From a virus: a stretch of 63,156 bases of DNA. The notes beneath the pieces were generated by a model. The model had not been told where the DNA came from. It worked only from the letters and a program-made list of their open reading frames with translations, and searched no databases. The stretch lies in IMG/VR virus record IMGVR_UViG_3300044715_000242, positions 1-63,156 of that record; one strand, given 5' to 3'. Position 1 is the stretch's first letter. Every line of letters starts with the position of its first letter. Shown here one piece after another: positions 1-58,688 of this stretch. The translations under genes and the position numbers were made by a program.

Positions 1-81
1 TTGTGTCAGCAACACTATCAACAAGTAATGAACGCATGGCATATTCAATATGAAGAAATTCGACGTGCCCGCAAAGTCTAA
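1..81 (+). CDS. 3' end of an upstream gene (partial)
   Basis: Frame 1 is open from the first base and stops with TAA at 79-81, giving about 26 residues rich in Q, H and R. It overlaps the next gene by 32 bases, as other genes in this island overlap. The start lies outside the window, so no function can be given. It could be chance open frame, but the unbroken frame and the overlap style support a real gene tail. Confidence 0.4.
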   Translation: MCQQHYQQVMNAWHIQYEEIRRARKV

Positions 82-826
82 AGGTGTTGTACTATTTGCT
101 GTTAACACTGCCACAGTTGATTATGTTAGAATCGCTGAGCAAGCCGCACGACTAATAAAACATACATTAAACTTACCTACTACCATTATCACAGATCTGG
201 GCGTACCTAGTTTAGCTAACTATCGCACTGGCTATGCTGGTGGTACAGAATGGAAGAATGGTGGTAGATATCGTGCATACGAACTTAGCCCTTATGACGA
301 AACTATCTTACTTGACAGTGACTATCTACAGTTAGACTCAAGTTTATTAACTATACTTGATACAACAGTTGATTATAAGTTAATGCACAATAATCAAAGC
401 CCTGAACAGTCAATGTCGGGCAACATGGGTCAGTTAAGTTTAGATTATGTATGGGCAACTGCTATAACATTTAAGCGTACAGATAAAACACAAATGTTAT
501 TTGATTTAGTTGGTCGTATTGAACGTAACTATGCTTACTATCAAAAACTATATCACTTAAGAGAACGTAATTTCCGCAATGATTATGCGTTTGCTATTGC
601 TAACAACATCATTAATGGGTACACTACTAACACCACACAAAGTATACCTTGGACTATGTTAACCCTGGATAAACTAATTAAAAACATTGAAATAACGGGC
701 GAAAAGATGATTATACGCGAAGAAAATTCTGCACATGTCATTGCCCTGCAAAACATACACGTGATGGATAAAGATTATTTGCTTAGTGAAAATTTTAATC
801 AGTTGGTAGATACAGTATGCGCATAA
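50..826 (+). CDS. Glycosyltransferase-like protein (GT-A type, DxD motif)
   Basis: This 258-residue protein looks like a nucleotide-sugar transferase of GT-A fold. The N-terminal part has an alternating beta/alpha pattern (VVLFAVN near residue 15). A hydrophobic strand followed by LLDSDYL near residues 87-93 carries the DxD-type motif that binds metal and nucleotide sugar in such enzymes. The next gene has the same architecture (YxLTPFKETIKLESD compared with YELSPYDETILLDSD here), so the two are paralogues. No signal peptide is seen, so it is probably cytoplasmic. The donor and acceptor are unknown. It opens a + strand run of overlapping genes (10-base overlap with the next), consistent with a glycan-building operon. 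Confidence 0.6.
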   Translation: MKKFDVPAKSKGVVLFAVNTATVDYVRIAEQAARLIKHTLNLPTTIITDLGVPSLANYRTGYAGGTEWKNGGRYRAYELSPYDETILLDSDYLQLDSSLLTILDTTVDYKLMHNNQSPEQSMSGNMGQLSLDYVWATAITFKRTDKTQMLFDLVGRIERNYAYYQKLYHLRERNFRNDYAFAIANNIINGYTTNTTQSIPWTMLTLDKLIKNIEITGEKMIIREENSAHVIALQNIHVMDKDYLLSENFNQLVDTVCA

Positions 827-1674
827 CACCACATCAAGCACAGCAGGGTTTTATGACCATTGCGCAGAATACCACAGAGGTTGATTACTTACAGCTTGCT
901 TACGTGCAAGCAATGAGTATTAAACTGACCATGCCTGATAGTTTATACGCAGTAGCAGTTGATAAACATACACTTGAACAGATAACAGAACAACATCGAC
1001 GGGTGTTTGATTATGTTGTTACTATTGAGAATGACCTAGCTGAAAACGAAACATGGAAGTTATCAAATGAATGGCAGGCATTTTATCTCACTCCATTCAA
1101 AGAAACAATTAAACTTGAAAGTGACATTGTATTCACTAGAAGTATTGCACATTGGTGGACTGCTTTTAGATTAAAAAATGTTGTACTAAGCACCGGCTGT
1201 AGAAACTATCAGCAGGAGTTAAGCGTATCACGAGAATACAGAAAGTTATTTGACGATAATGAATTGCCCGATACCTACAATGGGCTAATGTATTTTAGAT
1301 ACAGTCGTGAAGCTACGCAATTCTTTGCCTTAGCAGAACAAATATTTAAAAATTGGGCCTACATACGTGACAATGTATTACTTAACTGCCGTGATGATAA
1401 TCCCACTACTGATGTTGTCTATGCTCTAGCTGCAAAGTTACTTGGTGTAGAAGATTGTACACTACCTAGCCTAGACTTTATTAATTTTGTGCATATGAAG
1501 CCAGCAATTAATGCATGGACTAGTACACCCTGGCCCGAGTTAGTCATGTGTGAAACAGAACTGCCAATGATACGCATAGCAAACACCAATCAATATCACC
1601 CCGTTCACTATCATGAAAAGTCTTGGGTAACGGATCAATTAGTCAAGGAGTATGAACATGAACTCTTTAAGTGA
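817..1674 (+). CDS. Glycosyltransferase-like protein, paralogue of preceding gene
   Basis: This 285-residue protein shares its layout with the upstream gene: an N-terminal NTTEVDYLQLA segment matching NTATVDYVRIA, and a central strand ending in ESD where the neighbour has DSD. The replacement of the first Asp by Glu keeps an acidic metal-binding position. The C-terminus has conserved His and Trp residues (HMKP, STPWPE) that could close the active site. Start ATG overlaps the previous stop region by 10 bases. Likely GT-A fold sugar transferase; substrate unknown. Confidence 0.55.
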   Translation: MRITPHQAQQGFMTIAQNTTEVDYLQLAYVQAMSIKLTMPDSLYAVAVDKHTLEQITEQHRRVFDYVVTIENDLAENETWKLSNEWQAFYLTPFKETIKLESDIVFTRSIAHWWTAFRLKNVVLSTGCRNYQQELSVSREYRKLFDDNELPDTYNGLMYFRYSREATQFFALAEQIFKNWAYIRDNVLLNCRDDNPTTDVVYALAAKLLGVEDCTLPSLDFINFVHMKPAINAWTSTPWPELVMCETELPMIRIANTNQYHPVHYHEKSWVTDQLVKEYEHELFK

Positions 1675-2008
1675 ATTTGAAAAAGCATTGGCAATGCTCA
1701 AACCTACTGTAGAAGAAGTTAAAGAATATAGATTACACTACAATGAACTTGGAATCATTACAATGTGTACAATGATGAACCACCCAGCAGATACGCAGTA
1801 TGTTGTTGTTAGTCAAGATGAATATGAGAATTATTTCCGCTATACAATTGTAGACTGCCGTCTAAAAAAGATTGACAACAACCCGGGTTATCGTGTACAA
1901 TTAACTAGTAGTATCACAGGCTACGCTACTGTAAAGAAACATGCAGGACTAATAATAGAATCAACTGACACCTACCAGGATATAGAATACTATGACACAA
2001 ATCGTTGA
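1658..2008 (+). CDS. Hypothetical protein
   Basis: About 116 residues, not recognised. Two in-frame ATGs (1652 and 1658) are available. AGGAG at 1646-1650 is only 1 base from the first but 7 bases from the second, so 1658 is preferred. The protein has an acidic helical N-terminus followed by short beta-strand-like segments and an acidic, Tyr-rich C-terminus. It overlaps the glycosyltransferase genes on both sides, so it is probably co-translated with them and may be a partner protein. Confidence 0.65.
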   Translation: MNSLSEFEKALAMLKPTVEEVKEYRLHYNELGIITMCTMMNHPADTQYVVVSQDEYENYFRYTIVDCRLKKIDNNPGYRVQLTSSITGYATVKKHAGLIIESTDTYQDIEYYDTNR

Positions 2009-2888
2009 TATTGCAGATTTAGACTGCATCTACCTAAGTTACGATGAACCTAAAAAAGAAGAGTTTTGGATTAAAATTCAAAACATGGTGCCGTGGGCTA
2101 AACGAGTAGACGGTGTCAAGGGCAGTGATGCTGCACATAAAGCCGCGGCCGCCGCAAGTGATACTGAACGCTTTGTATTAATAGATGGTGATAACTTACC
2201 CGATCCAGAGTTCTTTAACCTACAGCTTACACTGGATGATACTAATCGAGATGTAGTATTCCGTTGGAAAGCACGTAACATTATCAACGGACTTATGTAC
2301 GGCAATGGTGGTATGAGTTGCTGGACCAAGGATTTTGTAAACAATATGCGTACACACGAAGCCAGCGATGGTGCAGATGATACCGCAGTTGAGTTTTGTT
2401 TTGATCCACGATATTGGGCAATGAATGATTGCTACAGCACAACATATCCAAATCAAAGTCCTTATCAAGCATGGCGAGCTGGCTTTAGAGAAGGTGTTAA
2501 GATGTGTTTGGATCGTGGTGCCAAACCTACACTACAAGAATTTGAAAAACGTGTACACGAACGTAACTATGATCATCTAAGCATATGGCACAATGTGGGC
2601 ATAGATGTAGAGAACGGTGACTGGGCCATGTACGGTGCTAAACTAGGCACATACATGACTATGATTACAGATTGGGATTATAGAGAAGTGCAGGACTTCG
2701 ATGCACTAAACAATATATGGCATCAACATAAAGTATATAATCTAGTAGAAGAATGTAGTGAAATGTCACATACATTAAGCGTAAAACTAGGATTACCTGC
2801 TCCACATTTCACAGCTGATCAAAGTAGATTCTTTAAACATCACTACAAAAGTGTGTTTAAAAACCGAGGCCCAATGTCACGTGAGTAG
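1992..2888 (+). CDS. Glycosyltransferase-like protein, related to the C-terminal module of the 872-residue protein
   Basis: This 298-residue protein contains FVLIDGDNLPD near residue 62, a DxD-like motif typical of GT-A enzymes, preceded by a helix that would pack against the nucleotide. Two later segments match the last module of the large protein at 16400-19018: NIINGLMYGNGGM compared with NPVNGLEYGHMGV, and AWRAGFREGVKM compared with TWRTAFRECIKL. The two therefore share a fold and probably a catalytic scheme. It is translated from an ATG inside the preceding gene's end. The donor and acceptor sugars are unknown. Confidence 0.55.
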   Translation: MTQIVDIADLDCIYLSYDEPKKEEFWIKIQNMVPWAKRVDGVKGSDAAHKAAAAASDTERFVLIDGDNLPDPEFFNLQLTLDDTNRDVVFRWKARNIINGLMYGNGGMSCWTKDFVNNMRTHEASDGADDTAVEFCFDPRYWAMNDCYSTTYPNQSPYQAWRAGFREGVKMCLDRGAKPTLQEFEKRVHERNYDHLSIWHNVGIDVENGDWAMYGAKLGTYMTMITDWDYREVQDFDALNNIWHQHKVYNLVEECSEMSHTLSVKLGLPAPHFTADQSRFFKHHYKSVFKNRGPMSRE

Positions 2889-2895
2889 TAATTTC

Positions 2896-4278
2896 ATGTC
2901 TGCCGCAGAAGAAATGAAGGACAAGTTAGGTCCGGCACTCTGCTTGGCTAAGTGGCAACAGGTAAGTCTACATTTACCAACGGGCTTAACTAACAGTTGT
3001 TATCATCCGCCTTTACATGAAATTGATAGCGCACCATTACTATTCAATCCCAGTGCCTTACACAATACTGACTATAAGAAACAGCAACGTAAACTTATGC
3101 TAGAGCAAACACGTCCGGCAGAATGCAGCTACTGTTGGAGTGCAGAAGATAACCAGCAACTAAGCGATAGGCATTATCGCAGTGGCGAACCATGGGCTGC
3201 TGAACACTACGAAACTATAGTTAATGCACCTTGGGATCAGGACGTTACGCCAAGTTATGTAGAAGTAAACTTCAGTCATGGCTGTAATTTGGCATGTAGC
3301 TATTGCAGTCCGCAGTACAGTACTAAGTGGGGTACAGATATTGACCGATGGGGAGCATATCCAACTAGTACTCCGCACAATGCGCCTGAACATTTTGAAG
3401 GTCGACGTAAGCCAATTCCAGTACGTGCAGAAAATCCTTATGTAGATGCATTTTGGTCTTGGTGGCCTGAACTATATCCTAAACTAAAACACTTCCGTAT
3501 GACAGGTGGCGAACCACTTATGGATAAGAATACGCATCGTGTGTTTGACTACATACTTGCCTTGCCTAAGAGTGACTTGCACGTTGATGTAACCAGTAAC
3601 TTTAGTGTCGAGCCTGAACTGTTTGACAAGTATCTAGACAAAGTAAAACAGCTATGCGAAGGTGAACGCATCGAACACTTTATGCAGTATGTTAGTTTAG
3701 ATTCGGGTGACACCAGACAGTCGGAGTATATTCGTCGTGGTTTAAATCAACATAGAGTAAATTCATATGTACATCGTTATCTTACACATATACCTTATCG
3801 CAATAGCCTAACCTATATCATCACGATGAGTAATTTAAATATTTTAGGACTAAAACAATTATTGCAGACTGTATTAGATCAACGTGAATTGTATAGCGAA
3901 ACTTATCAACGTGTTTGGTTTGATACACCTTTACTACGTAGTCCAACTTGGCAAAGTTTACAGATACTTCCAGCAAGTTACCAGACAGTATTAGAAGATG
4001 TTATAGCATTTATGCGGGCTAACCTAATGCCCAACGATAGTTTTGTTGGCTTTAAAGATTATGAAATACAGCGTATGGAACGCAACTTACTTTGGATGCG
4101 AGATGGTAGCAAGTTAGATGCAAAGTATGTTACACTACAACGTGCGGACTTCTATCGATTCTTTAGCGAATACGATAAACGTCGCGGCGCATACGAAACT
4201 GACATAGGACATTTTACAGACATATTCCCACAGATGCGAGAATTTTGGAACGAATGCAAATATCATGCCGAAAATTAA
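2896..4278 (+). CDS. Radical SAM protein with N-terminal twitch-type domain
   Basis: About 460 residues if started at ATG 2896. A GTG at 2881 or 2851 in the same frame is possible, but these lie inside the previous gene. The radical SAM cluster motif CNLACSYC is at residues 130-137 (CX3CX2C), followed by the GGE motif (MTGGEPL) that contacts SAM. Before it lies a cysteine-containing module (CLAKW, NSCYHP, CSYCW) laid out like the auxiliary-cluster twitch/SPASM domain but placed N-terminally, as in the N-Twi-rSAM family. The enzyme would cleave SAM to a 5'-deoxyadenosyl radical. The substrate is unknown. It overlaps the next gene by 14 bases and starts a run of four such genes. Confidence 0.8.
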   Translation: MSAAEEMKDKLGPALCLAKWQQVSLHLPTGLTNSCYHPPLHEIDSAPLLFNPSALHNTDYKKQQRKLMLEQTRPAECSYCWSAEDNQQLSDRHYRSGEPWAAEHYETIVNAPWDQDVTPSYVEVNFSHGCNLACSYCSPQYSTKWGTDIDRWGAYPTSTPHNAPEHFEGRRKPIPVRAENPYVDAFWSWWPELYPKLKHFRMTGGEPLMDKNTHRVFDYILALPKSDLHVDVTSNFSVEPELFDKYLDKVKQLCEGERIEHFMQYVSLDSGDTRQSEYIRRGLNQHRVNSYVHRYLTHIPYRNSLTYIITMSNLNILGLKQLLQTVLDQRELYSETYQRVWFDTPLLRSPTWQSLQILPASYQTVLEDVIAFMRANLMPNDSFVGFKDYEIQRMERNLLWMRDGSKLDAKYVTLQRADFYRFFSEYDKRRGAYETDIGHFTDIFPQMREFWNECKYHAEN

Positions 4279-5617
4279 TAACGAAACAGACTTAGAATAC
4301 AAGCGTAGAGTAATTGACATTAAGTCAGAATCATTCTGTGCGGCCAAGTGGTACAATGCTACTATATGGTTGGGTTCGGGTATGACTACTAGCTGTCATC
4401 ATCCACTACCGCACAAAGTGTCACTTGAGGATATTGCTGCTAATCCCAAAGCCCTGCACAACAGCATACGTAAGAAAGAAGAACGTCGTATGATGCAACA
4501 AGGTGAACGACCCGCGGGCTGTGAATACTGCTGGAAGATTGAAGACATGGGCACAGCGGCAGTCAGTGACCGTGTGTACAAAACTGTAATTTATAAAGAT
4601 GAGGATTTAGATTATGCATATAATTTACCCGCGGACCAAGACGTGGATCTGCAGACATTGGAAATTTCTTTTGACCGTACTTGTCAATTTGCTTGTAGTT
4701 ACTGCAATCCTGCTTTTAGTAGCGCCTGGGTCAGAGATATTAAAACAAATGGTGCTTACACAAACTTGGTATCAGACGGTAGGAATCACTTTACTCATGT
4801 TCATGATAGTAGTCAACTTTACACACTCAATGAAGTTAATCCTTATGTGGAAGCGTTCTTTAAGTGGTGGGAAACAGACCTACACAAGACGTTAAAAGAA
4901 CTGCGCATCACAGGTGGTGAACCCTTGATGTCGGGTTATACATGGCGTCTAATAGATTGGTTTAAAGAACATAAAGGTGCCAGTACTACACGCCTAGCTA
5001 TCAATAGTAATCTTGGCTTTAAACGTGATGTACTCGAACGCTTGCTGGATAGCACACAGGGTATCGAACTTGATATCTACACCAGTAACGAAGCTATGGG
5101 CGCACAAGCAGAGTATATACGTGATGGATTAGAATGGAAACAATGGGTCAAAAATTTAGTATTTCTATTAGAATCCAAACAGGTGCGCGGCGTGCATATC
5201 ATGGGCACAATCAATGCCCTGTGTTTATCAAGCCTCAGTGAATTTTTGTACAATATAATGAAACTCAAAGAGAAATACGGACGTGATTCATTGTCGTTTA
5301 CTCTAAATATTCTGCGCTTTCCAAGTTTCCAAAGCCCTTTAATATTACCCTTAGAACTACGTAAAAAATATAGTTTAGAACTTGAAACTTTTTTAGCTAA
5401 CAATAATAAGAATACAGTATTTCATGAGCACGAATTTGAGCACATTAAACGACTAATTGAATATTTGACCATGGTAGATATTCCGCATGCTGAAGCATTT
5501 GATTTGCCTAAATTACAAAACGATTTTAAACAATTTTATCAGCAATACGACCAACGTCGAGGCAAAGACTTTAAATATACATTTACACAATTAACTAACT
5601 GGTACGACACCTTATGA
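4265..5617 (+). CDS. Radical SAM protein with N-terminal twitch-type domain
   Basis: 450 residues, a close architectural match to the previous gene. It has an N-terminal Cys module (CAAKW, TSCHHP, CEYCW) and then CQFACSYC at residues 140-147 with ITGGEPL further on. These two genes form a subtype: a single Cys followed by His-Pro in the N-terminal module, and CSYC in the cluster motif. The next two genes have a CC pair and CRxC instead. The divergence suggests different substrates or steps rather than a recent duplication. It is coupled to its neighbours by overlaps of 14 and 4 bases (ATGA). Confidence 0.8.
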   Translation: MPKINNETDLEYKRRVIDIKSESFCAAKWYNATIWLGSGMTTSCHHPLPHKVSLEDIAANPKALHNSIRKKEERRMMQQGERPAGCEYCWKIEDMGTAAVSDRVYKTVIYKDEDLDYAYNLPADQDVDLQTLEISFDRTCQFACSYCNPAFSSAWVRDIKTNGAYTNLVSDGRNHFTHVHDSSQLYTLNEVNPYVEAFFKWWETDLHKTLKELRITGGEPLMSGYTWRLIDWFKEHKGASTTRLAINSNLGFKRDVLERLLDSTQGIELDIYTSNEAMGAQAEYIRDGLEWKQWVKNLVFLLESKQVRGVHIMGTINALCLSSLSEFLYNIMKLKEKYGRDSLSFTLNILRFPSFQSPLILPLELRKKYSLELETFLANNNKNTVFHEHEFEHIKRLIEYLTMVDIPHAEAFDLPKLQNDFKQFYQQYDQRRGKDFKYTFTQLTNWYDTL

Positions 5618-8169
5618 GCGATGAGCCAAGCAAAAAATTAACTGTACATCATAAAAATCACAATTACAATACACGTAAACCTGTGTATATACATGAAGAT
5701 GAGTTAACAGAAGATCAAACATATAAACTAATAGAAAGCAAGCACTTCTGTATGATACCATGGACGCACATGCATGGAATTCCCGATGGTCGTGCATATC
5801 CATGTTGTTTAGGTGAAATGCATTTGCCGATTGGTAACTTCAAAGAGAATACCATGGCAGAAGTATGGAATGGAACCCCATACAAACAGATGCGTCTAAA
5901 TATGTTAGAGGATAAACCCAGTAAAGAATGTACACGTTGTTACGAACAAGAAGACAACGGATTCTTTTCGATGCGCAACAGTCAAAATAAGAACTTTGGA
6001 CATCATATTGCCTTAGCAGATAAAACTAATGCCGACGGTAGTTTAGATGACTTTAAACTACGCTACTATGATGTACGTTTTAGTAATCTATGTAACTTTA
6101 GTTGCCGTACTTGTGGTAGTTTATTCAGCAGTAGTTGGTTTGCAGAAGAAACTAAACTATTCGGTAAATTAAATCATCCGCAGATTATGTTTGCAGGTAA
6201 AAATAAAGATGACATGTGGGAACAGATGCAGGAACACATTCCCTATCTAGAACAGATTTACTTTGCCGGCGGCGAGCCATTAATCATGGAAGAACATTAT
6301 CGCATATTAGAAGAACTGGTTAAGCGTGAAATGTTCCATGTTAGGTTAATCTACAACACAAACTTCAGTCACATACGTCTTAAAGATAAGATGGTATTTG
6401 AATATTGGAAACTGTTTGATGTAGTAAGTGTGGGTGCTAGTTTAGATGATTCATATCTTCGCGGAGAATACATCCGCAAGGGCACAGACTGGGCAGAAAC
6501 AGTAGAAAATCGACGCAAAATGATTGAAATTTGTCCTAAAGTTGACTTTTATGTCAGCAGTACAGTTAGTATACTTAATGCTTGGCATTTAACTGAATTT
6601 CATAAAGAATGGGTTGAACTTGGCTTAATTAAAGCAATGGATTGGAATGTTAACATTCTACAAAGTCCAGAACGTGATCGAATCGATGTATTACCAATTC
6701 AGTTTAAAGATAGAATTAAGCAACGTGTTGAAGAACATATTGCTTGGCTTGACCCACAGGATCATTTACAACGAGCTATATCGGGTTATCGAGCTATTAT
6801 CACATTTATGTATCAAGACGATAAGAGCCATTTATTAAAAGAATTTTTTAAGATAAATGATCAAACCGATGAGTTTAGAAAAGAAACATTCGAAGAAGTG
6901 TTTCCAGAATATCAAGAGTTGAGAGACCATTTGGGAATCAATAAGACACATGATAATATCTGTATGTTGCCGTGGGTCAGTATTGAAGCAAGTCCAGTCG
7001 GCACAGCCCGTCCGTGTTGTCTGGCTAAAGATGAAATTACTAAACCCGATGGTACTCCGTATAAACTTAGAGAAAGCTCCTTGGCTGAAATTTACAATAG
7101 TGAATACATGCAGGACCTGCGCCAACAATTCCGTCGAGGTGAAAAGCCTAGTACATGCAATCGTTGCTGGAGTGAAGAAGATGCGGGCATAGTTAGTAAA
7201 CGTATCAACAGCAGAATTAGACTTAAAGAATTCTATCCAATAGTTGATTGGCGTAATGATACACCGGATCAACTTTGGTTCATTGATCTTAAACTAGGCA
7301 ACATCTGTAATCTTAAATGTCGTATATGCGGATCATGGAGTAGCAGTAAATGGGCTAAAGAAGAAATTGATTACGAAGCTAGAAAATATAAAGACGTGCA
7401 GGGATATGACCGTAAACAACACGGTGCATATATGTTCCTACAAGAAGGAACCTGGCCGAGGGAAAGCGAAGTATTTTGGGAAAATTTAAAAGAACTATTA
7501 CCAAACATTAAGTACTTTGAATTCACAGGCGGCGAACCATTCCTAATCGAAGAGCATTTTAAACTATTACGCTATGCAGTTGAGCATGGATATAGTAAAC
7601 GTATTGATATACACTATAATACTAACGGTACAGTATACCCAAGCGACGAAGAAGTTGCCTTATGGAGTAAATTTAGAAATGTTGAAATTGCAGTTAGTAT
7701 TGATAATACCGAAGCACGTTTTGAATACGAACGCTATGGTGCTGTGTGGGAAGAAGTAAAAACTAATGTTATAAAATTTAATGCCATGAAAACTAATTTA
7801 ATTCAGACACAGGTTTGCATGACCGTTAACATACAAAATGTTTATTATCTGCCCGAGCTATGTGACTGGGTTAATACTCAACAATTTGATATGGTGCATT
7901 TTAATATGTTGCATGACCCGAGTGTTATGTGTATCAATCGAATGACAACGGATGCACAAAAGTTAGTAATTGATAGATTATCTGCTTATCCATTTAATGT
8001 TAAGCATCGAGTTGAAATTGATAAGATAATTCAATTTATCGAAAATGGTGGTGGTAGTGATGGCACAGAATTCCTACATAAGATGCAACAGACAGACGCA
8101 TACCGTGAGCAGAGTATGTTAACTACTCATAGAGAGATTGCTGTAGCAATGGGCTATGTCGAAGCCTAG
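5614..8169 (+). CDS. Tandem double radical SAM protein (two twitch plus radical SAM modules)
   Basis: This 851-residue protein is twice the length of its neighbours and contains two complete copies of the same module. Module 1 has a Cys set (C46, C64-C65, C106, C109), then CX3CX2C at C160/C164/C167 and FAGGEPL. Module 2 restarts near residue 450 with CMLPW, CC and CNRC, then C565/C569/C572 and FTGGEPF. Both SAM-binding sets look intact, so both halves may be active. The translation is unbroken across the junction, so this is a real fusion and not a missed stop. It could carry out two consecutive radical steps on one substrate, or work as a built-in dimer. Substrate unknown. Confidence 0.85.
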   Translation: MSDEPSKKLTVHHKNHNYNTRKPVYIHEDELTEDQTYKLIESKHFCMIPWTHMHGIPDGRAYPCCLGEMHLPIGNFKENTMAEVWNGTPYKQMRLNMLEDKPSKECTRCYEQEDNGFFSMRNSQNKNFGHHIALADKTNADGSLDDFKLRYYDVRFSNLCNFSCRTCGSLFSSSWFAEETKLFGKLNHPQIMFAGKNKDDMWEQMQEHIPYLEQIYFAGGEPLIMEEHYRILEELVKREMFHVRLIYNTNFSHIRLKDKMVFEYWKLFDVVSVGASLDDSYLRGEYIRKGTDWAETVENRRKMIEICPKVDFYVSSTVSILNAWHLTEFHKEWVELGLIKAMDWNVNILQSPERDRIDVLPIQFKDRIKQRVEEHIAWLDPQDHLQRAISGYRAIITFMYQDDKSHLLKEFFKINDQTDEFRKETFEEVFPEYQELRDHLGINKTHDNICMLPWVSIEASPVGTARPCCLAKDEITKPDGTPYKLRESSLAEIYNSEYMQDLRQQFRRGEKPSTCNRCWSEEDAGIVSKRINSRIRLKEFYPIVDWRNDTPDQLWFIDLKLGNICNLKCRICGSWSSSKWAKEEIDYEARKYKDVQGYDRKQHGAYMFLQEGTWPRESEVFWENLKELLPNIKYFEFTGGEPFLIEEHFKLLRYAVEHGYSKRIDIHYNTNGTVYPSDEEVALWSKFRNVEIAVSIDNTEARFEYERYGAVWEEVKTNVIKFNAMKTNLIQTQVCMTVNIQNVYYLPELCDWVNTQQFDMVHFNMLHDPSVMCINRMTTDAQKLVIDRLSAYPFNVKHRVEIDKIIQFIENGGGSDGTEFLHKMQQTDAYREQSMLTTHREIAVAMGYVEA

Positions 8170-9445
8170 TACACTTTGTCTAGCACCGTGGGTACATACA
8201 TATCTTAGTCCGCAAACTGAGCGACGTATGTGCTGTGCTAGTCGCGAGCCCGCACAGAACTTTGAACAGTACATAGATACTAAAGCTGGTACTGGCACAT
8301 ATATTCCTATTACACTTGAAGAACATTGGAATAGCGAACACATGAAAAGTGTACGTCGCCGTATGATGGCAGGTGAAACACTACCTGAGTGCGAAGTGTG
8401 CAATGACAAATTACTTAACACTAGCATTTACCGTAGTTATTTTGATAGTCTGTTTGGCCATAAGTATTTGCAAGTACTAGAGAATACCCAACCAGACGGA
8501 ACTACTACACTTCGTCCTGTAAGCTGGGATTATCGCTTTAGTAACTTATGCAATTTCAAATGTCGTATGTGTGGTGATATGTTAAGCAGTGCATGGGAGT
8601 CTGAACAAAGACAATATGACATGATTAACTGGCATAATCCAAAGAACAATTGGATGCGGCCCGAAGTAAGAAATGAAATATCAAAATTTCAAGATAGTCA
8701 AATTGAACAGGAGTTTGCTCAAGCAGTTGAAGATCATCAAGTAGAAGAAGTATATTGGGTGGGTGGTGAACCCTTGATGTATGAACAACATTGGCGCTAT
8801 ATGCAGCGCATTGTTGAACTAGGAGATGGCAAAAATGTTTACGCAAGATACAATACAAATCTTAGCCGCGTCGACTATCGTGGCGTCAATCTCTATAGGG
8901 ATATTCTATCTGGGCTACGTGACTGGCAAATCTGTGCCAGTCTCGACGGAACTGGTCGAATTGGAGAATATATTAGAACAGGACTTGACTACAATACATG
9001 GCTTGCAAATTTCCGTGAAGGAGTTAGAACAGCAAGTCATAGAAGGCAAATGCGAATTGACTTTACTCTCACACTGCCCGGCATGTTTGAAGTCACAAAC
9101 ATTACCCAGCTTGCTGAAAAAGAAAACGTAGATGTCTTGGCTAAAGTTATTTTTAGCTTTAGCCCTGACATCATCCTTAGTCCGCTGGCACTACCACGCG
9201 ACTTACTACATCCTTGGCTAGATGAACTAATACCACAAACTTCTGGTGCTATGCAGGATATACTTGTGCAGTTAAAATCACGACCAACGTTTGATGAGCA
9301 ATGGCCAGATACATATAAAGTAAGTCTTGCAAAAGGTAAGGCTCGTGTGCTACAATTAGAAAGTATACGTAAAGATACCTATACGCTAGCAGACATATTA
9401 AAAGAGAGACCGGCTGTATATGAATGGTACAACAACATTGCTTGA
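8156..9445 (+). CDS. Radical SAM protein with N-terminal twitch-type domain
   Basis: 429 residues. The N-terminal module shows CLAPW, MCCAS and CEVCND. The cluster motif CNFKCRMC is at residues 132-139 and the SAM-contacting VGGEPL follows. It resembles the modules of the fused protein upstream (RFSNLCNF is shared with module 1) more than the first two radical SAM genes. It overlaps the fused gene by 14 bases and the next gene by 26, so all are likely made from one message. Function beyond radical SAM chemistry cannot be assigned. Confidence 0.8.
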   Translation: MSKPSTLCLAPWVHTYLSPQTERRMCCASREPAQNFEQYIDTKAGTGTYIPITLEEHWNSEHMKSVRRRMMAGETLPECEVCNDKLLNTSIYRSYFDSLFGHKYLQVLENTQPDGTTTLRPVSWDYRFSNLCNFKCRMCGDMLSSAWESEQRQYDMINWHNPKNNWMRPEVRNEISKFQDSQIEQEFAQAVEDHQVEEVYWVGGEPLMYEQHWRYMQRIVELGDGKNVYARYNTNLSRVDYRGVNLYRDILSGLRDWQICASLDGTGRIGEYIRTGLDYNTWLANFREGVRTASHRRQMRIDFTLTLPGMFEVTNITQLAEKENVDVLAKVIFSFSPDIILSPLALPRDLLHPWLDELIPQTSGAMQDILVQLKSRPTFDEQWPDTYKVSLAKGKARVLQLESIRKDTYTLADILKERPAVYEWYNNIA

Positions 9446-10505
9446 TCAAATTGAAATTGATTTAAAAAACAATAAAACCAACGAACTGTTAACTGTATAC
9501 ATTGATGTATTTGACAGCTCACTTAGTCGTAAATGGTTATCAGCATTAAATCATCTAGTAGAAAATAACTATCACTTAGAAAAGAATTATTGTTTTCACG
9601 GCTTTATCGAATCTGAACGTAATGCAGAGTATATAACTGATCAAATGAATCAGTCAATTGCTGCAATTAATCAAGCTAATATTGGCTATCAAATTGATGA
9701 TCATTTCACAGTGGCTAATACAATAATGCCCGGACCGGTAGGTGATGATTTACCAGGTGGTATGATTATACATGATAAATTAAATCAATTGCATCGATAT
9801 TTTGAAGACCTGCAGGGCACTAGCGGCCATATGACAGAATATTACAACCGTGCTGATAATCAAACTAAATGGCACATTCGACAATTAAATTTATTATGTC
9901 ATGAATACGAATCGCTGGTGTTGAGCATGCGCAAAGCCGCGCACGCACCAGAATGGCGAAGACCAAGTCAGCTAATGTGTTGGTTAAATGCACCAAGATT
10001 TGTATTAGATGCAGATGATTTTGAATTGTTTGGAATTAACAGCATAAACCGACCACTGGGTGGTGTATTCGCTGGAGTCAACAAAGCAGTGGGCAAACAT
10101 CATTATGAAGTATTTCGAGATGAAGGCGCAGCAGGGCATAGAATAGATGAATTGACTACTACAACATTGCGTTCGCAAACAGAAGCCGCCGGAGACTTTG
10201 ATATTGAATGGGCCAATGACCCGGGCAAATATCATTGGCAAATACGAAGTCTTGAAGCGTTTAGAACATGGTTAATTGACAATGGATTCGATCCAGAAGA
10301 TAAAACATTAACAATTGGTCACCCACAGGTCGGACAAGTTGATTTAATTAGAAGTTTTGGATCAACAGACTATAACGTTATATGGGCACAGCTCGGCCTA
10401 CACTTAAATGTACACAGCATACGAACTAGTAGTGCTACTGTAACTTATACATACGATTGGTCAGACAGTGACTATCGAGATCAACAGATCCTAAGGATAT
10501 CCTAA
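9420..10505 (+). CDS. Hypothetical protein in the radical SAM operon
   Basis: 361 residues, family not recognised. It has no transmembrane segment or signal peptide and no obvious cofactor motif. It is rich in His, Asp and aromatic residues (for example HWQIRSLEAF, IRSFGSTDYN). Its placement between the radical SAM genes and the SGNH/carbamoyltransferase genes, with a 26-base overlap upstream and one base to the next ATG, suggests a dedicated role in the same pathway. It could be a carrier, partner or modifying enzyme; nothing in the sequence decides between these. Confidence 0.7.
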   Translation: MNGTTTLLDQIEIDLKNNKTNELLTVYIDVFDSSLSRKWLSALNHLVENNYHLEKNYCFHGFIESERNAEYITDQMNQSIAAINQANIGYQIDDHFTVANTIMPGPVGDDLPGGMIIHDKLNQLHRYFEDLQGTSGHMTEYYNRADNQTKWHIRQLNLLCHEYESLVLSMRKAAHAPEWRRPSQLMCWLNAPRFVLDADDFELFGINSINRPLGGVFAGVNKAVGKHHYEVFRDEGAAGHRIDELTTTTLRSQTEAAGDFDIEWANDPGKYHWQIRSLEAFRTWLIDNGFDPEDKTLTIGHPQVGQVDLIRSFGSTDYNVIWAQLGLHLNVHSIRTSSATVTYTYDWSDSDYRDQQILRIS

Positions 10506-10506
10506 G

Positions 10507-11334
10507 ATGATTTTACTATCAGGCGGTGATAGTTTTACTTATGGCAGTGAACTAACCGATAGTGTTACTCATAGAGATACTACTAACCCTGACCCTGCCC
10601 ATCAGATAGTCAGTTTAAGTACTTACCCGGCACTCTTAGCCCAAAACTTTGGTATGCACTATGAATGTGCAGCATATCCCGGATTTAGTAACAGTGCTAT
10701 TCGTCGGACTACGATGAACGCCTGTGAAAAATTACAAGACGTTGGATTAGTGATTGTGACATGGACCTTTCCTGGTAGATACGAATTTAGATTTAATTAT
10801 GATACAGAAGAACGTTGGGGTAATTGGTACAACCTTACTTCTTGGTCAATCATTGATGATATAGAAGATATTAAACGCGAATTTAAAACAGATGATCCTG
10901 ATATACTCGAACATCACGTTACACATTTAAATCGAGCAAAACGTTCAGGCGTAACTGAATTTGCCAAAACATTTTATAAGCACATCGGTGCATCAAAAGA
11001 ACAGTATTGGGAAACTTATAATTCGCTGACAGAAATAATTATGTTACAGCAATATCTACAGTTAAGAAAGATACCCTATATATTTTCAATGGTGGATGAA
11101 GCACTATTAAATAACTGTATGCATCTAATGAATGATGAAAGTATAGCATTATTATACAATCAAATTGACTTCGATCGTTGGATTACTTTCCCAAATAATC
11201 AAGGATTTTATACCTGGGCAAGAGACTTTAAATATCCTATAGGCACAACACATCCGTTGGAACCTGCGCATATTGATGCTGCAAAATATATTCGGGAGAA
11301 TTATCATGAACTGGTTAAAGAATTTATACAGTAG
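10507..11334 (+). CDS. SGNH-hydrolase-like protein
   Basis: 275 residues. The N-terminal strand ends in SGGDSFTYG, the GDS block whose Ser is the nucleophile of SGNH/GDSL hydrolases. A later NSAIRR segment fits the Gly/Asn blocks, and the C-terminal THPLEPAH supplies the catalytic His. Members hydrolyse or transfer acyl esters, including on polysaccharides. No secretion signal is seen. AAGGA lies upstream of the ATG at good distance. It is the first of three SGNH genes around the carbamoyltransferase, which suggests acyl or carbamoyl ester editing of a glycan. Confidence 0.7.
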   Translation: MILLSGGDSFTYGSELTDSVTHRDTTNPDPAHQIVSLSTYPALLAQNFGMHYECAAYPGFSNSAIRRTTMNACEKLQDVGLVIVTWTFPGRYEFRFNYDTEERWGNWYNLTSWSIIDDIEDIKREFKTDDPDILEHHVTHLNRAKRSGVTEFAKTFYKHIGASKEQYWETYNSLTEIIMLQQYLQLRKIPYIFSMVDEALLNNCMHLMNDESIALLYNQIDFDRWITFPNNQGFYTWARDFKYPIGTTHPLEPAHIDAAKYIRENYHELVKEFIQ

Positions 11335-11407
11335 AATTCGATTAGAAATAAACTATCGTAAAAAATTAAAAGAATTACGTAAACGCGATCCTTTTATCTA
11401 TAAATGA
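11306..11407 (+). CDS. Small basic protein (33 residues)
   Basis: A 33-residue frame lies between two SGNH genes. GGAG at 11294-11297 sits 8 bases before its ATG. It overlaps the upstream gene by 29 bases and its TGA overlaps the next ATG as ATGA. The product is strongly basic and amphipathic, ending in RKRDPFIYK. The tight coupling at both ends and the ribosome site argue that it is translated. At minimum it acts as a translational coupler; it may also be a small membrane- or nucleic-acid-binding peptide. Confidence 0.55.
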   Translation: MNWLKNLYSRIRLEINYRKKLKELRKRDPFIYK

Positions 11408-11952
11408 TTTTAGTCAATGGCGATAGTTTTACCGCAGGTGAAGAAAGCGAAGTTGCATGGCCTGATTTAATCAGTGGCACTGTAAACATTAGTGTTCCTG
11501 GTGCTAGTAATGATTACATACTTAGATCAACAGTTGACTATGTCGACACACATTCAGTTGATTATGTAATCGTAGCATGGACTAGTCCTAACCGTATTGA
11601 ATTGCCTGGCAAACATTTAACATCGGCTAGTTATAAAAAATATGGTCCTGTAGTCAATAGTGTATTTGCTGACTGGGACACTGCATGGGCTTATAAAAAA
11701 TTTATAGTACAGACTAAGTTATTAGATGCCTATTTACACAATATACCACACGTGTTTGTAAGTACCTTTGATATACAACAACAAGCAACTGACACAGGAT
11801 TATCATGTTGGCTAGGCTGGCCAAACCAAGGCATAGTAGAATGGATGGGTGATTGTCCAAAAGGACCGGGTGGACATCCACTGGAACTAGGGCATCAACG
11901 AATAGCGGAAGTAATCAATGAACATATTAGGCATCTCGGCTGGGTTTCATGA
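11404..11952 (+). CDS. SGNH-hydrolase-like protein (short form)
   Basis: 182 residues. NGDSFTAGE near residue 5 is the nucleophile block; GASNDYI fits block III with Asn; GGHPLELGHQ near the end supplies the catalytic His. It is about 90 residues shorter than the upstream SGNH protein but retains all blocks. It overlaps the following carbamoyltransferase gene by 35 bases. Expected activity is ester hydrolysis or acyl transfer; the substrate is unknown. Confidence 0.7.
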   Translation: MILVNGDSFTAGEESEVAWPDLISGTVNISVPGASNDYILRSTVDYVDTHSVDYVIVAWTSPNRIELPGKHLTSASYKKYGPVVNSVFADWDTAWAYKKFIVQTKLLDAYLHNIPHVFVSTFDIQQQATDTGLSCWLGWPNQGIVEWMGDCPKGPGGHPLELGHQRIAEVINEHIRHLGWVS

Positions 11953-13408
11953 CGCAGCAATTACATTAATCAAAGGCGATGACATTGTCTTTGCGGGCCA
12001 TGCTGAACGTTACAGCAAGATTAAACACGATCCAAATTTAAACAGTGAACTGTTTAAAGATTGCATATTTAATCATGGCGAACCTGATCTAATTGCCTAC
12101 TACGAAAGACCCTGGGTTAAAAAGACACGTCAACTCTATGCTGGCCAGTACAGCGAACTAACTAAAGGCTGGAGTGTGCGCAACATGATACACAAAGTCG
12201 CTCCGTGGTTGAGTTCTACTCCGATTAATACATACAATCATCATTTAAGTCATGCAGCGGCCGGCTTTCAAACTAGCCCGTTTGACAGCGCAACAGTTGT
12301 GGTAATCGATGCCATCGGCGAGTGGGACACCATAAGCATATGGTCAGCTAAGTATGTCAATGGCCGTGCTGAATACACCCGAGTATGGCGACAACTATAT
12401 CCACACAGCATCGGCTTGATGTACAGTGCATTTACTAAAGAAGTTGGACTTAAACCACTAGATGAAGAATACATCTTGATGGGTATGGCAGGTTGGGCAA
12501 AACAAAATACCACACGTCTAAGTGATCAACTGTCAACTTGGTTAGTTGACCATGAGTTTAATCTAACATTAAAACACAATCTACATATTGGTCTACCCGA
12601 TAATGACATGCGAGCTCGTTGGAATGATTTTGAAATTGCTAATGCGGCACAGACATTAACAGAACAATTGATACATAATATTATGTACAAGGCAAAGAAG
12701 CTAGCACCTAATAGTAATTTAGTATATGCTGGCGGAGTTGCTCTTAATTGCAGTGCTAATAGAGATCTAGGAGAATACTTTGATGAAATATGGATTATGC
12801 CTAATCCTGGTGATGCTGGTAGCAGCCTTGGAGCGGCGGCATTGGCACACGGGGGTAAACTTAATTGGAATAATGCTTTTCTTGGCCATAATATTAGTGG
12901 CAGTTATCCTGTCACCGATGTTGTCTCTGAGCTAATGACCAATAAGATCGTTGGCGTTGCTAGCGGCCGTGCAGAGTTTGGCCCTAGAGCATTGGGCAAT
13001 CGTAGTTTATTAGCCGACCCACGTGGCCCTGACATTAAAGATGCAGTTAATCAAATTAAACGTAGACAGAAGTTTAGACCATTCGCTCCTATAATACTAG
13101 AGGAGTTTGTTGATGAGTATTTTGAAATGCCCAACGGATTTGCCACAAGCAGATACATGCAAACAACTGCAAAGTGCCTGCGACCCGATGAATTTCCTGC
13201 TATAATACATGTAGATGGTACAAGTCGTGTACAGACTGTGCCCAGAGATGGCAGTGGTATACGTGAACTATTGTGCTTGTGGTATACTTGGACAGGTTGT
13301 CCTATGTTACTTAATACAAGTTTAAATGTACGTGGTGAACCGATGGTTAACGATCGTGCAGATGCTGACCGCTTTGAGCAGTTATACGGAATTCGAGTTT
13401 TATCTTGA
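11918..13408 (+). CDS. Carbamoyltransferase (NodU/CmcH/TobZ family)
   Basis: 496 residues. The N-terminus GISAGFHDAA and the later HHLSHAAAGF and DAIGEWDT segments are the ASKHA-fold signature of O-carbamoyltransferases. The C-terminal GRAEFGPRALGNRS block is the hallmark of the family. Such enzymes use carbamoyl phosphate and ATP to make carbamoyl-adenylate and then carbamoylate a hydroxyl on a sugar or antibiotic. The context (glycosyltransferases, SGNH hydrolases, radical SAM enzymes) points to carbamoylation of a glycan or a small molecule. The length is slightly below the usual 530-570. It overlaps both neighbours. Confidence 0.88.
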   Translation: MNILGISAGFHDAAITLIKGDDIVFAGHAERYSKIKHDPNLNSELFKDCIFNHGEPDLIAYYERPWVKKTRQLYAGQYSELTKGWSVRNMIHKVAPWLSSTPINTYNHHLSHAAAGFQTSPFDSATVVVIDAIGEWDTISIWSAKYVNGRAEYTRVWRQLYPHSIGLMYSAFTKEVGLKPLDEEYILMGMAGWAKQNTTRLSDQLSTWLVDHEFNLTLKHNLHIGLPDNDMRARWNDFEIANAAQTLTEQLIHNIMYKAKKLAPNSNLVYAGGVALNCSANRDLGEYFDEIWIMPNPGDAGSSLGAAALAHGGKLNWNNAFLGHNISGSYPVTDVVSELMTNKIVGVASGRAEFGPRALGNRSLLADPRGPDIKDAVNQIKRRQKFRPFAPIILEEFVDEYFEMPNGFATSRYMQTTAKCLRPDEFPAIIHVDGTSRVQTVPRDGSGIRELLCLWYTWTGCPMLLNTSLNVRGEPMVNDRADADRFEQLYGIRVLS

Positions 13409-14253
13409 TACTACCAGATTTTATATTAACTACCAGACAACATAAAGTATGGAATGAATCTGGTATAGATTCTGAGAAATATTGCACGGATAAACATCAT
13501 TTTAATTCTTATCCTTATGCCATTGAATACAATTACAATTCTCGAGGATTCAGAGACAGTGAATGGCCCGATAACATAACCGATGCAATATGGTGCTTTG
13601 GTGATAGTTTTACAGTAGGATTGGGTAGCCCATTAGAGCATACTTGGGTAAACATATTACAAAATAAAACTAACATTCGGTGTATTAATGTTAGTATGGA
13701 CGGCGCCAGCAATGATTGGATCGCAAGAAAAGTACTACGCTTGTTAGAAACTATAACTCCTCGATGTATAATTATCCAGTGGACTTATGTTGAACGAGCT
13801 GAAGACACAGATGACACTAAGATTGACGAGAATCGCCGCCTGGCATATACTGATTTAGATAATAAAGTTTATTTACATAATTTTGATAAAAATTTAGATG
13901 CCGTTAATACCGCTGTAACCACTACTAAATTAATTCATTCAATGATTCCTGGTGCGTACCGTATAGAAAATGAAGAATTTTTCAATATTAAATGGAAAAA
14001 ACTTAGTGGAGATACATGGCCCACTGCACCTCGCACAAAACTAGAATTTGATTCCCTTCCTGTGAACATTAAAGAAGAGTTAAGTACGTATGATTTTTAT
14101 AATGATTACTACGAGTACATACATCTAACCGATTCGGCAATTCGTAATAATATTATTCAGTTGACACAGGTTGATCTAGCAAGAGATGGTCACCATTATG
14201 ACAAAGCTACTGCAACTAATTTTGTGTCAGACCTTATGAAAGTAATTTACTAA
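13405..14253 (+). CDS. SGNH-hydrolase-like protein
   Basis: 282 residues starting with TTG at 13405, four bases before the end of the preceding gene; no ATG occurs before the catalytic block. WCFGDSFTVG near residue 67 is the nucleophile block, GASNDWI is the Gly/Asn block, and DGHHYDK near the C-terminus supplies His. The 65 residues before the GDS block include RGFRDSEWP, a pattern seen in SGNH proteins with an N-terminal extension. It is the last gene of the co-transcribed run and converges with the next gene, overlapping it by 20 bases. Confidence 0.68.
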   Translation: MILPDFILTTRQHKVWNESGIDSEKYCTDKHHFNSYPYAIEYNYNSRGFRDSEWPDNITDAIWCFGDSFTVGLGSPLEHTWVNILQNKTNIRCINVSMDGASNDWIARKVLRLLETITPRCIIIQWTYVERAEDTDDTKIDENRRLAYTDLDNKVYLHNFDKNLDAVNTAVTTTKLIHSMIPGAYRIENEEFFNIKWKKLSGDTWPTAPRTKLEFDSLPVNIKEELSTYDFYNDYYEYIHLTDSAIRNNIIQLTQVDLARDGHHYDKATATNFVSDLMKVIY

Positions 14254-15553: not shown

Positions 15554-15988
15554 ATGAAAATCTTAATTTGTGGCCTACCCGGCTCAGGTAAAACTACGTT
15601 AGCTGAACGGTTAACAGAAGAAATAGCCAATAACTTTGCTGTAGAGTGGGTTAATGCCGACGAAGTCCGACAGGCCACCAACGATTGGGATTTTACCAGT
15701 GAAGGTAGACTACGACAAGCACATCGCATGCGACATATCGCAACTGCAATTGAGCAACGAGATATAATTGCCATATGCGATTTTGTCTGTCCCACACGGG
15801 AACTGAGAAAAATATTTGATGCTGATCTAGTGGTTTGGATGGATACTATTCGGTCTGGTCGTTACGAAGATACTAATCAATTGTTTGAACCTTTGTCCAT
15901 TGAAGAATATGATTTCCGTATTACTACATTTGATGATATTGATCAATGGAGTAAGACCTTGGCTGATTTAGTTTGGATACTAGAATGA
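15554..15988 (+). CDS. cysC: Adenylylsulfate-kinase-like P-loop kinase
   Basis: 144 residues from ATG 15554; a TTG at 15491 in frame lies upstream of the promoter and is rejected. GLPGSGKT at residues 7-14 is a Walker A loop. WVNADEVR and the later EGRLRQAHRM and CDFVCP segments resemble APS kinase (NADxxR and the following arginines). The reaction would be APS plus ATP to PAPS. It is shorter than host CysC (about 200 residues) but similar to phage and archaeal short forms. ATGA overlap couples it to dCMP deaminase. With sulfotransferase-like genes and a SulP transporter in the window, a PAPS role is reasonable. A generic nucleotide or sugar kinase is the alternative. Confidence 0.65.
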   Translation: MKILICGLPGSGKTTLAERLTEEIANNFAVEWVNADEVRQATNDWDFTSEGRLRQAHRMRHIATAIEQRDIIAICDFVCPTRELRKIFDADLVVWMDTIRSGRYEDTNQLFEPLSIEEYDFRITTFDDIDQWSKTLADLVWILE

Positions 15989-16407
15989 AAACAAAATATA
16001 AACTAGCACACATGCGAGCTGCACATCTCTACAGTGATCTAAGCACAGCACGTAGACTTAAAGTTGGTGCACTAGTAGTTAAAGACGACAGAATTATTTC
16101 AATTGGCTACAATGGTATGCCTACTGGTTGGGATAATAACTGCGAGTATGAACTTGACGATGGCACGATTAAAACTAAACCGGAAGTCCTACATGCTGAA
16201 ACTAACGCACTTGCAAAACTAGCCAGGAGCACTGAGTCTGGACTTGATGCTGACTTATTTGTTACTCATAGTCCTTGTTTGGATTGTGCCAAGCTCATAT
16301 ACCAAAGTGGTATCAAACGAGTTTACTACGCTACTAGTTATCGCGATGATAGTGGAGTCAATTTCCTTAAGGCTTCGGGAGTGGAAGTAGAACAGTTAGA
16401 TGTTTGA
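15985..16407 (+). CDS. dCMP deaminase
   Basis: 140 residues from ATG 15985, which overlaps the upstream TGA. HAETN at residues 70-74 and PCLDC at 97-101 are the zinc-binding and proton-relay motifs of the cytidine/deoxycytidylate deaminase fold. The N-terminal SxARRLKVGALVVKD segment fits the dCMP deaminase family (T4 Cd, ComEB). It converts dCMP to dUMP, which feeds the phage thymidylate synthase at 22408-23241. Allosteric dCTP/dTTP control is usual in the family but cannot be seen here. Confidence 0.88.
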   Translation: MKTKYKLAHMRAAHLYSDLSTARRLKVGALVVKDDRIISIGYNGMPTGWDNNCEYELDDGTIKTKPEVLHAETNALAKLARSTESGLDADLFVTHSPCLDCAKLIYQSGIKRVYYATSYRDDSGVNFLKASGVEVEQLDV

Positions 16408-40083: not shown

Positions 40084-40112
40084 ATTATACTATACTTCTA
40101 TCATTCGATCAA
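40084..40112 (-). promoter_or_regulatory. Sigma70 promoter for queE
   Basis: On the minus strand TTGATC (40112-40107), 17-base spacer, TATAAT (40089-40084). The -35 lies inside the 3' end of the upstream radical SAM gene, so queE can be expressed on its own. Confidence 0.68.
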
Positions 40113-58571: not shown

Positions 58572-58597
58572 GATGTCATTCCTTTAGTTAAAAATAT

Positions 58598-58626: not shown

Positions 58627-58688
58627 CACTATAAAATTTATTATTACCGACGCTGATATATAAGTATGATAATACAAAGAGGCGCACA

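Follow-up and report, generated by a model that had tools for sequence, protein, structure and literature searches.

A conserved viral operon of five N-terminal twitch radical SAM domains and its possible role in glycan tailoring

The stretch of DNA analysed here, the window, is a virus record of 63,156 bases (IMGVR_UViG_3300044715_000242). An island of five radical S-adenosylmethionine (SAM) domains, referred to here as types A, B, C1, C2 and D, lies on its plus strand at positions 2896-9445 and is encoded by four genes with successive overlaps of 4-14 nucleotides (nt). Type A is found at 2896-4278 (its longest frame begins with a GTG at 2851), type B at 4265-5617, C1 and C2 in one fused gene, gene C, at 5614-8169 (C1 approximately residues 1-444, C2 residues 445-851) and type D at 8156-9445. 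All four genes exceed the curated cut-off of 170 bits of the NCBIfam profile NF033640 (N_Twi_rSAM, here N-Twi) and cover nearly the full profile, with 274 bits for A, 294 for B, 717 for gene C in two stretches and 290 for D. In an alignment, each of the five domains has CX3CX2C, GGEP and four N-terminal cysteines; in A the latter are spaced C-x18-C-x41-C-x2-C and lie upstream of CX3CX2C and GGEP. There are two subtypes: A and B have a single Cys followed by YHP or HHP, with CSYC (CYHP ... CNLxCSYC in A, CHHP ... CQFACSYC in B), and C1, C2 and D have CC, with CRxC (MCCAS ... CNFKCRMCG in D). The initial annotation, made from the letters of the window alone, had described five complete radical SAM domains in four adjacent overlapping genes, a Cys module before each and these two subtypes, and the coordinates, the alignment and the profile scores bear it out on all three points.

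The motifs are also intact in the relatives of these domains. Among 677 full-length domains, the window's five included and those of at most 360 amino acids (aa) or below 35% identity to the window type left out, every one has GGE together with its three radical SAM cysteines. Each twitch cysteine is kept in 95-100% of each type, the lowest being the first twitch Cys of D (115/121), and each motif position is kept in 143-144 of 144 type A, 135-139 of 139 type B and 115-121 of 121 type D sequences. Five of the seven Pfam Radical_SAM (PF04055) matches on the record fall inside the island, which indicates that the five-domain cluster is not due to chance. In the PF04055 search of the proteins, gene C is over the cut-off and A, B and D score 22-29 bits against a cut-off of 29.5; in the search of the record A, C1, C2 and D are over it and B is below. 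With the SPASM model of Pfam gene C is over the cut-off, D reaches 18.4 against 21.5 and no match is listed for A and B. An identity as ordinary QueE- or PqqE-like enzymes is rejected, as no such family reaches its cut-off: on A, QueE_Clost scores 31.5 against 260 and MoaA 26.7 against 284, and the other QueE/MoaA/PqqE-like NCBIfam families are far under theirs (for gene C among the best 25 of 34 matches). Positions 26-99 of the C1/C2 profile match residues 181-256 of BtrN in the PDB (E 5.4e-5), that is, the N-terminal module matches the C-terminal twitch of BtrN, a single-cluster twitch enzyme of the radical SAM class that dehydrogenates an aminocyclitol. The position of the N-Twi module would thus fit a twitch that has moved to the front of the protein. 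Two more radical SAM proteins, with a B12-binding look by eye, lie beyond the island on the minus strand at 32055-33587 and 40090-42132.

The initial annotation had considered such an island unusual in a phage. This was not borne out, as two scans of viral contigs returned at least 543 and 184 relatives, respectively. The best 80 of each gave 160 loci, of which six on already counted contigs (L094, L117, L121, L124, L150 and L159) were dropped, leaving 154, or 155 with the window; the sample was taken from the best matches to window genes and favours the window's relatives. All five types are present in 118 of the 154 viral loci, and 71 of the 154 have the exact order A B C1 C2 D. Fusion of C1 and C2 is seen in approximately 17 genes, against approximately 127 single C1 and 139 single C2 genes as typed by best window match. 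The genes are tightly packed, with 688 of 724 N-Twi starts lying within the preceding gene or at most 20 nt after it. In a quick tree with 11 viral domains per type plus the window, and 119 bacterial domains sampled to 55, a single branch sets C1, C2 and D each apart, and two changes are needed for A and B, since Bdellovibrionota rows are nested among them. On 31 large contigs N-Twi has 1 to 21 matches each, and the Gp23 capsid family is found on 24 of them; many cassette-bearing viruses are T4-like. The cassette is near-absent solely from the collection of named phage records, in which 6 of 50,697 have a distant relative of gene C, at 22-26% identity. Phage-type cassettes were also seen in contigs of metagenome-assembled genomes (MAGs) labelled Betaproteobacteria, Flavobacterium, Pelagibacter, Rickettsiales, Verrucomicrobia and Rhodobacteraceae (L168-L172 and L200); these are probably phage contigs binned with bacteria. 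One large contig (G013, positions 440001-457165, locus L407) has a series of short open frames, of which several begin with MNISIKLNYIK and continue into Gly/Asp/Tyr repeats.

These counts bear on whether the five domains belong to one pathway. The multi-step pathway suggested in the initial annotation is favoured by the finding that five separately conserved types are kept together, but it is not demonstrated. Alternatively, the five could be decoration enzymes with separate jobs, gathered together as tail-region islands accumulate such genes. There are loci with A alone (7) and with A B (8; contig ends were not checked individually), a contig of 362,810 bases (G014) has a single N-Twi, extra types are often inserted, and some contigs have as many as 21 matches, all of which would be expected of independent enzymes. 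The retention of five types in most viral loci, their exact order in 71 and their tight packing would not be, and we consider separate jobs quite improbable.

The genes around the island, all on the plus strand, were grouped into families and counted in the 155 loci, all of which were selected for N-Twi. Four genes lie between the start of the window and the island. The first, cl2 (50-826, 258 aa, 127/155 loci), is named a putative GT8-like glycosyltransferase from a DxD-like motif, LLDSDYL, and its likeness to cl1; it has no Pfam match and its best PDB profile match (E 0.3) is a ribosomal protein. The second, cl1 (817-1674, 285 aa, 128/155), is probably a GT8-like, glycogenin-like glycosyltransferase and is weak in Pfam; its family profile matches glycogenin chains at E 5.5e-5 to 5.4e-3 over a part of its length (positions 4-110 of 280). 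These are followed by cl10 (1652-2008, 96/155), a conserved protein of 118 aa with no Pfam match, and by cl0 (1992-2888, 298 aa, 136/155), a putative glycosyltransferase-like protein in which D65 G66 D67 N68 (DGDN) is invariant in 25 sequences; cl0 has sub-threshold Pfam matches only, none over the cut-off in PHROGs and none below E 0.05 in the PDB. Downstream of the island are cl7 (9420-10505, 361 aa, 108/155), tentatively a cyclophilin-like beta-barrel with a helical insertion from its structure model, two SGNH-hydrolase-like proteins recognised by motif and with no Pfam match over the cut-off (10507-11334, GDSFTYG, 82/155; 11404-11952, GDSFTAG, 81/155), and a NodU/NolO-type O-carbamoyltransferase (11918-13408, 99/155). 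The latter is over the cut-off for Pfam Carbam_trans_N and _C and matches phrog_1601 (E 2.9e-96); for the NCBIfam NodU equivalog it is below it (147 against 1000 bits). A third SGNH-hydrolase-like protein (13405-14253, GDSFTVG, TTG start, sub-threshold Lipase_GDSL_2) is less conserved (18/155). Looser members are an APS-kinase-like P-loop kinase (15554-15988, Pfam APS_kinase over the cut-off, 63/155) and a large protein with putative glycosyltransferase-like repeats that resemble cl0 by eye (16400-19018, no Pfam match, 53/155). The genes from 50 to 11334 overlap or are at most 7 nt apart, with a gap of 69 nt before 11404. Among the neighbours named in the initial annotation, the carbamoyltransferase therefore stands over its cut-off, the SGNH assignment consists of the GDSFT motif and sub-threshold Pfam matches, and the glycosyltransferase assignment of weak Pfam matches and the match of the cl1 profile to glycogenin. 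On the opposite strand beside the cassette (18999-21073), a DegT aminotransferase and an NAD-dependent epimerase were found, nucleotide-sugar genes whose products might supply it.

The co-occurrence of these neighbours in other genomes was also found when the search began from the neighbours instead of N-Twi; together with the N-Twi profile scores, this runs contrary to both outcomes that the initial annotation had named as refuting it. With cl7, N-Twi was present in 79 of 79 new loci, and with cl1 in 67 of 79, the remaining 12 contigs ending 2 to 2,288 bases past cl1. The virion-like family cl5, which lies upstream of cl2 together with cl3, also virion-like (97/155), and cl6 (cl5 and cl6 each 115/155), gave visible N-Twi in 56 of 80 loci; 20 of the other 24 have less than 5 kb left, and the last four are on contigs bearing N-Twi in other loci. 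N-Twi is found in 55 of the 59 cl5 loci with 5 kb downstream. Neither cl5 nor cl6 has a Pfam or PHROGs match, and the 50,697 phage records contain no relatives of gene B, cl7, cl1, cl6, cl0 or cl5.

The setting of the operon is seen in a contig (L088) that matches the window with 100% identity over C2, cl1 and a DpdA-like protein and that extends the window upstream. Its upstream order is a baseplate wedge protein, a virion structural protein of 4,370 aa, a tail-fibre-like protein, virion-like proteins, cl5 and cl6; in two Pseudomonas phage records, a relative of cl3 bears the annotation of a virion structural or baseplate protein. The operon begins one gene upstream of the window, with cl6, after tail-fibre genes. 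The gap between cl5 and cl6 (2743-2818 of L088, approximately 240-310 bases before the window) contains TTGACA-17-TATACT and a T-tailed hairpin of 12 pairs. A sigma-70 match of at least 10/12 is found in 57 of 93 loci with a cl5-cl6 gap of 40-120 nt, against 2.6 expected from shuffling, and in 7 of 174 other same-strand gaps, against 4.6. The cl5-cl6 gaps fold more strongly (-15.2 against -6.9 kcal/mol), and 96 of 101 fold below their own shuffles. This signal emerges from comparison across loci only, as a plain scan of L088 gave no excess of promoters (60 against 71 in shuffles) or terminators (10 against 11.8). The hairpin comes after the promoter in L088 and before it in several other loci, and may be the terminator of the fibre operon. 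Since the promoter and hairpin are conserved and the genes from cl6 onward overlap or nearly so, the cassette is probably transcribed on its own.

The time of its expression is not given by the promoter type. Sigma-70-type promoters were found in 6 of 20 gap-strand cases of the window (4 on the minus strand), against 0.55 expected, and a perfect TTGACA-17-TATAAT is located in the intergenic gap at 58571-58689 (minus strand). As an early or late marker the type was rejected, since 8 of the 18 stretches that precede the major capsid gene likewise score at least 10/12 (shuffled means 7.9-8.5). The T4 late promoter TATAAATA was also rejected as evidence of late expression: it occurs 0 times on both strands of the window against 9.3 expected, once in L409 against 5.1, 0 times in L088 against 3.0 and in 1 of 104 cl5-cl6 gaps against 0.9. 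Its absence from the window suggests another late promoter, or avoidance.

Counterparts of the cassette were found in bacteria with a genome scan that gave 79 loci, from which the six phage-like ones described above were left out. The query was the C1/C2 alignment, and bacterial A, B and D types are therefore under-sampled. A Bacteriovoracaceae MAG (L174) carries all five types on a stretch of chromosome, namely B, D, C2-like, C1, C2, A, B and an A-like gene, flanked by genes that read by eye as ObgE/L27/L21 and Lgt, with a capsule-phosphatase-like gene, below the cut-off, nearby. Among 290 Bdellovibrionota genomes, 7 have D matches of at least 298 bits and 58 any match at E<=1e-20. In genome G233, D sits between GlmU and GlmS, both over the cut-off, and on a Bdellovibrionota contig of 2.66 Mb (L422, G086) an NTP transferase, GT2 and three GDSL-like proteins, of which one is over the cut-off, accompany D, a C2-like domain, two B domains and an A-like one. 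In Bacteroidetes, L190 has the order N-Twi, NodU, a protein of 122 aa, SGNH-like (sub-threshold), then further genes, GT1 and an epimerase-like gene, and L195 and L203 repeat the order from N-Twi and NodU to the epimerase. In L216 an FkbM methyltransferase is fused to N-Twi (372 bits, over the cut-off), and in L188, which also carries a cl7 relative, NodU is fused to an N-Twi-like domain that at 88 bits is below the cut-off of 170. Further NodU-N-Twi fusions were rejected, as the long NodU proteins of L405 and L406 are without an N-Twi match. The NodU family is over the cut-off in 36 of 50 N-Twi genomes (57 bacterial loci reduced to 50), mostly with one or two copies each; of the 73 bacterial loci, 5 have it within the stretch analysed, and three of these 5 belong to one phylum, against a chance of approximately 1% per locus by rough arithmetic. 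Arrays of N-Twi genes of mixed or uncertain type were seen in Bdellovibrionota-type genomes (L244, L246, L236, L186 and L191), with up to ten genes in 20 kb in L244.

A structure model of C1 (mean predicted local distance difference test, pLDDT, 93.3) has its closest folds tied at Z 12.2-12.6, namely BlsE, SuiB, CteB, anSME, SkfB and DesII; BlsE and DesII are enzymes acting on sugars. The model of cl7 has a pLDDT of 87.4. In VIA-align, 19 of its first 29 rows are named cyclophilin or peptidyl-prolyl isomerase and the other ten have chain titles without names; Z is 7.3-9.0 over the 29, with 134-153 residues aligned, and the tool cautions that unrelated proteins often give a best Z of 7-8. Foldseek found nothing for cl7 in the PDB at E<=0.001 (E>=0.9), and the PDB sequence-profile search no match at E<=1. 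Its nine viral matches at E<=0.001 are all uncharacterised phage proteins.

We consider the best single reading to be that the operon is a glycan-tailoring pathway, with the tail fibre or the host surface as its target, to which we give a little less than an even chance. It is preferred because three bacterial lines of evidence that are independent of phage synteny lead to sugars: the NodU and glycosyltransferase neighbours in some loci, the placement of D between GlmU and GlmS and the fusion to FkbM. On the phage side it is supported by the conservation of the NodU, SGNH and glycosyltransferase-like genes (99, 82 and 81, and 127-136 of 155 loci) and by the cl1-glycogenin match; the reach of the C1/C2 profile to BtrN and the presence of BlsE and DesII among the fold neighbours also support it. 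Simple hydropathy predicted no membrane segments in any gene from 50 to 23241, which is counted on the same side; the membrane export and polymerisation proteins of surface-glycan clusters were not seen in that stretch. We infer the sugar substrate, each chemical step and the target as follows. The gene set, conserved with its cysteine motifs intact and preceded by a conserved promoter and hairpin, would be a self-contained operon that builds and decorates an unusual glycan. GT8-like transferases, cl1 and probably cl2 and cl0, would place the sugars. In each of the five N-Twi enzymes a 5'-deoxyadenosyl radical would take a hydrogen from a sugar carbon and the N-terminal twitch cluster would accept or relay an electron, with dehydrogenation, epimerisation or deoxygenation as the outcome, each at different sugar positions. 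The carbamoyltransferase and the SGNH proteins would attach or strip carbamoyl and acyl groups. The target could be the receptor-binding fibre of the phage (cl5/cl3, just upstream) or the surface polysaccharide of the infected cell.

Several observations weigh against this interpretation, and our confidence in it was lowered by a recount of the bacterial contexts without sugar genes. The genes next to 24 bacterial N-Twi genes that occur singly are of mixed kinds (123 proteins, 141 families), the commonest among the best 25 of the 141 families being GT2 (5), DAO (4), response regulators (3), GDSL (3) and NodU (2). Sugar genes are found in two of six Bdellovibrionota D contexts (L421 and L422), and none were seen by eye in the other four (L423-L426). 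The TPR-array fusion partner of N-Twi in Elusimicrobia and one more MAG (TPR fusions in L189, L179 and L197) is uninformative on sugars. In the phages, the linkage of the neighbours is in part common descent, as the loci were selected for N-Twi and the phages are related. Neither cl2 nor cl0 has a significant glycosyltransferase match in Pfam or PDB profiles. The tied fold neighbours of C1 cannot choose between a sugar and a peptide enzyme, and cl7 may, from its model, be a cyclophilin-like barrel, which is better known for acting on proteins.

The last two points lead to the main rival, direct modification of protein. Here the five enzymes would serially modify side chains of a phage protein, in the manner of maturases of ribosomally synthesised and post-translationally modified peptides or of anSME, with cl7 as a folding partner; the candidates would be most likely the fibre proteins cl5 or cl3, or cl6 and cl10 as small carriers. 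Peptide-acting twitch/SPASM enzymes (SuiB, CteB, SkfB and anSME) are among the closest folds of C1, cl7 is perhaps cyclophilin-like, and cl5, which is Ser/Thr-rich (25-29% in three copies measured) and has no relative among the named phage records, goes together with the cassette. The conserved families contained no short peptide that resembles a precursor (the survey across loci covered open reading frames of at least 60 aa), and cl6 and cl10 are conserved along their whole length, unlike precursors. Protein modification also leaves the glycosyltransferase, carbamoyltransferase and SGNH genes without explanation and makes the bacterial GlmU/GlmS, NTP transferase and FkbM contexts a coincidence. 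We regard it as unlikely.

Within glycan tailoring, we slightly prefer the fibre over the host surface as the target, in view of the link between cl5 and the operon and of the lack of any encoded membrane protein, both of which are weak arguments. If the target were the host, the surface polysaccharide or lipopolysaccharide would be altered early in infection and the receptor hidden from competing phages. The operon's own sigma-70-like promoter, of a type that recurs in other gaps of the window, would suit this, as would the one chromosomal counterpart near GDSL-like and GT2 genes, and alteration of the O-chain by the glycosyltransferases of the region has been proposed for pelagimyophages in the available text of PMC7029224. 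The lack of a membrane protein in the cassette speaks against it, and the promoter type, shared with capsid upstream stretches, leaves the timing unsettled with TATAAATA absent from the window. This version, which forms part of the glycan-tailoring interpretation and is not added to it, is a minority possibility. In sampled loci that are long enough, the cl5 fibre family is confined to contigs with the operon. That a five-step radical SAM assembly line of jumbo T4-like phages and Bdellovibrionota works in fixed series on one fibre glycoconjugate and makes a new virion sugar is a narrower proposal, and a doubtful one.

Phage glycosyltransferases are able to glycosylate DNA. By eye, QueD-, QueE-, GCH1- and DpdA-like genes lie on the minus strand of the window (36030-36581, 39205-40065, 43335-44036 and 51354-53042); they are likely a 7-deazaguanine DNA-modification set, although the DpdA-like protein has no Pfam match. 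The cassette might therefore hypermodify phage DNA bases with sugars, together with these genes, and glycosylation of DNA by phage enzymes is described in the available text of PMC12619734. A DpdA-like relative is present on 24 of the 31 large contigs. The cassette, however, is located in the tail-fibre region, apart from the deazaguanine genes; on the 457-kb contig G013 there are 13 matches to N-Twi and none to the DpdA-like protein, and G014 has a DpdA-like match yet a single N-Twi. Hypermodification of DNA is therefore very improbable, and glycan tailoring of fibre or host surface remains our preferred reading.

N-Twi enzymes, found in many viral contigs and in bacterial genomes, can now be placed in a defined operon whose start, gene order and partners are described and whose active-site motifs are intact; their bacterial homologues are open to expression or deletion. 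If the glycan reading is true, viruses build surface sugars by serial radical chemistry, with a bearing on receptor recognition and phage competition in natural waters. Virome surveys may carry N-Twi genes under the names of heme or cofactor enzymes. In the available text of a Baltic study (PMC9301287), 261 genes are given as 'ahbD', with doubt expressed about that assignment; some of these could be N-Twi genes.

No published description of an ordered five-type radical SAM operon was found in literature searches, in so far as the sources were available. Earlier work had named the N-Twi enzyme family as well as radical SAM cassettes in this region of phage genomes. Closest in place is the pelagimyophage host recognition cluster: its radical SAM gene cassettes lie in the tail-fibre region past a giant virion gene, with glycosyltransferases (PMC7029224). 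In the available text 'Radical SAM' occurs twice in the main text and subtypes, order, operon and partners were not seen; the 13 complete pelagimyophage genomes are of 132-164 kb (PMC7029224), and the N-Twi contigs of the present analysis are up to 457 kb long. A joint enrichment of radical SAM and glycosyltransferase genes has also been described for viromes of Tasman Sea phages, a result of profile counts in which, in the available text, an operon or family was not seen (PMC7150976). Virion glycosylation in mycobacteriophages (Freeman et al. 2023, via PMC12619734) shares the placing of glycans on virion proteins; a radical SAM step was not seen in the available text of that source. Among enzymes, the family NF033640, compared by name and profile only, has the same N-terminal twitch followed by a radical SAM core; its name carries no function, and none was found for it. 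The SPASM/twitch peptide maturases (SuiB, CteB and SkfB) and anSME share the radical SAM core and an auxiliary cluster and are tied as the best folds; in contrast to them, the window cassette has no precursor found (with the limit on short reading frames given above) and has sugar genes as neighbours. BtrN shares the four-cysteine module with one CxxC, but in BtrN-like twitch dehydrogenases the twitch is C-terminal to the core, whereas in the domains of the window it is N-terminal.

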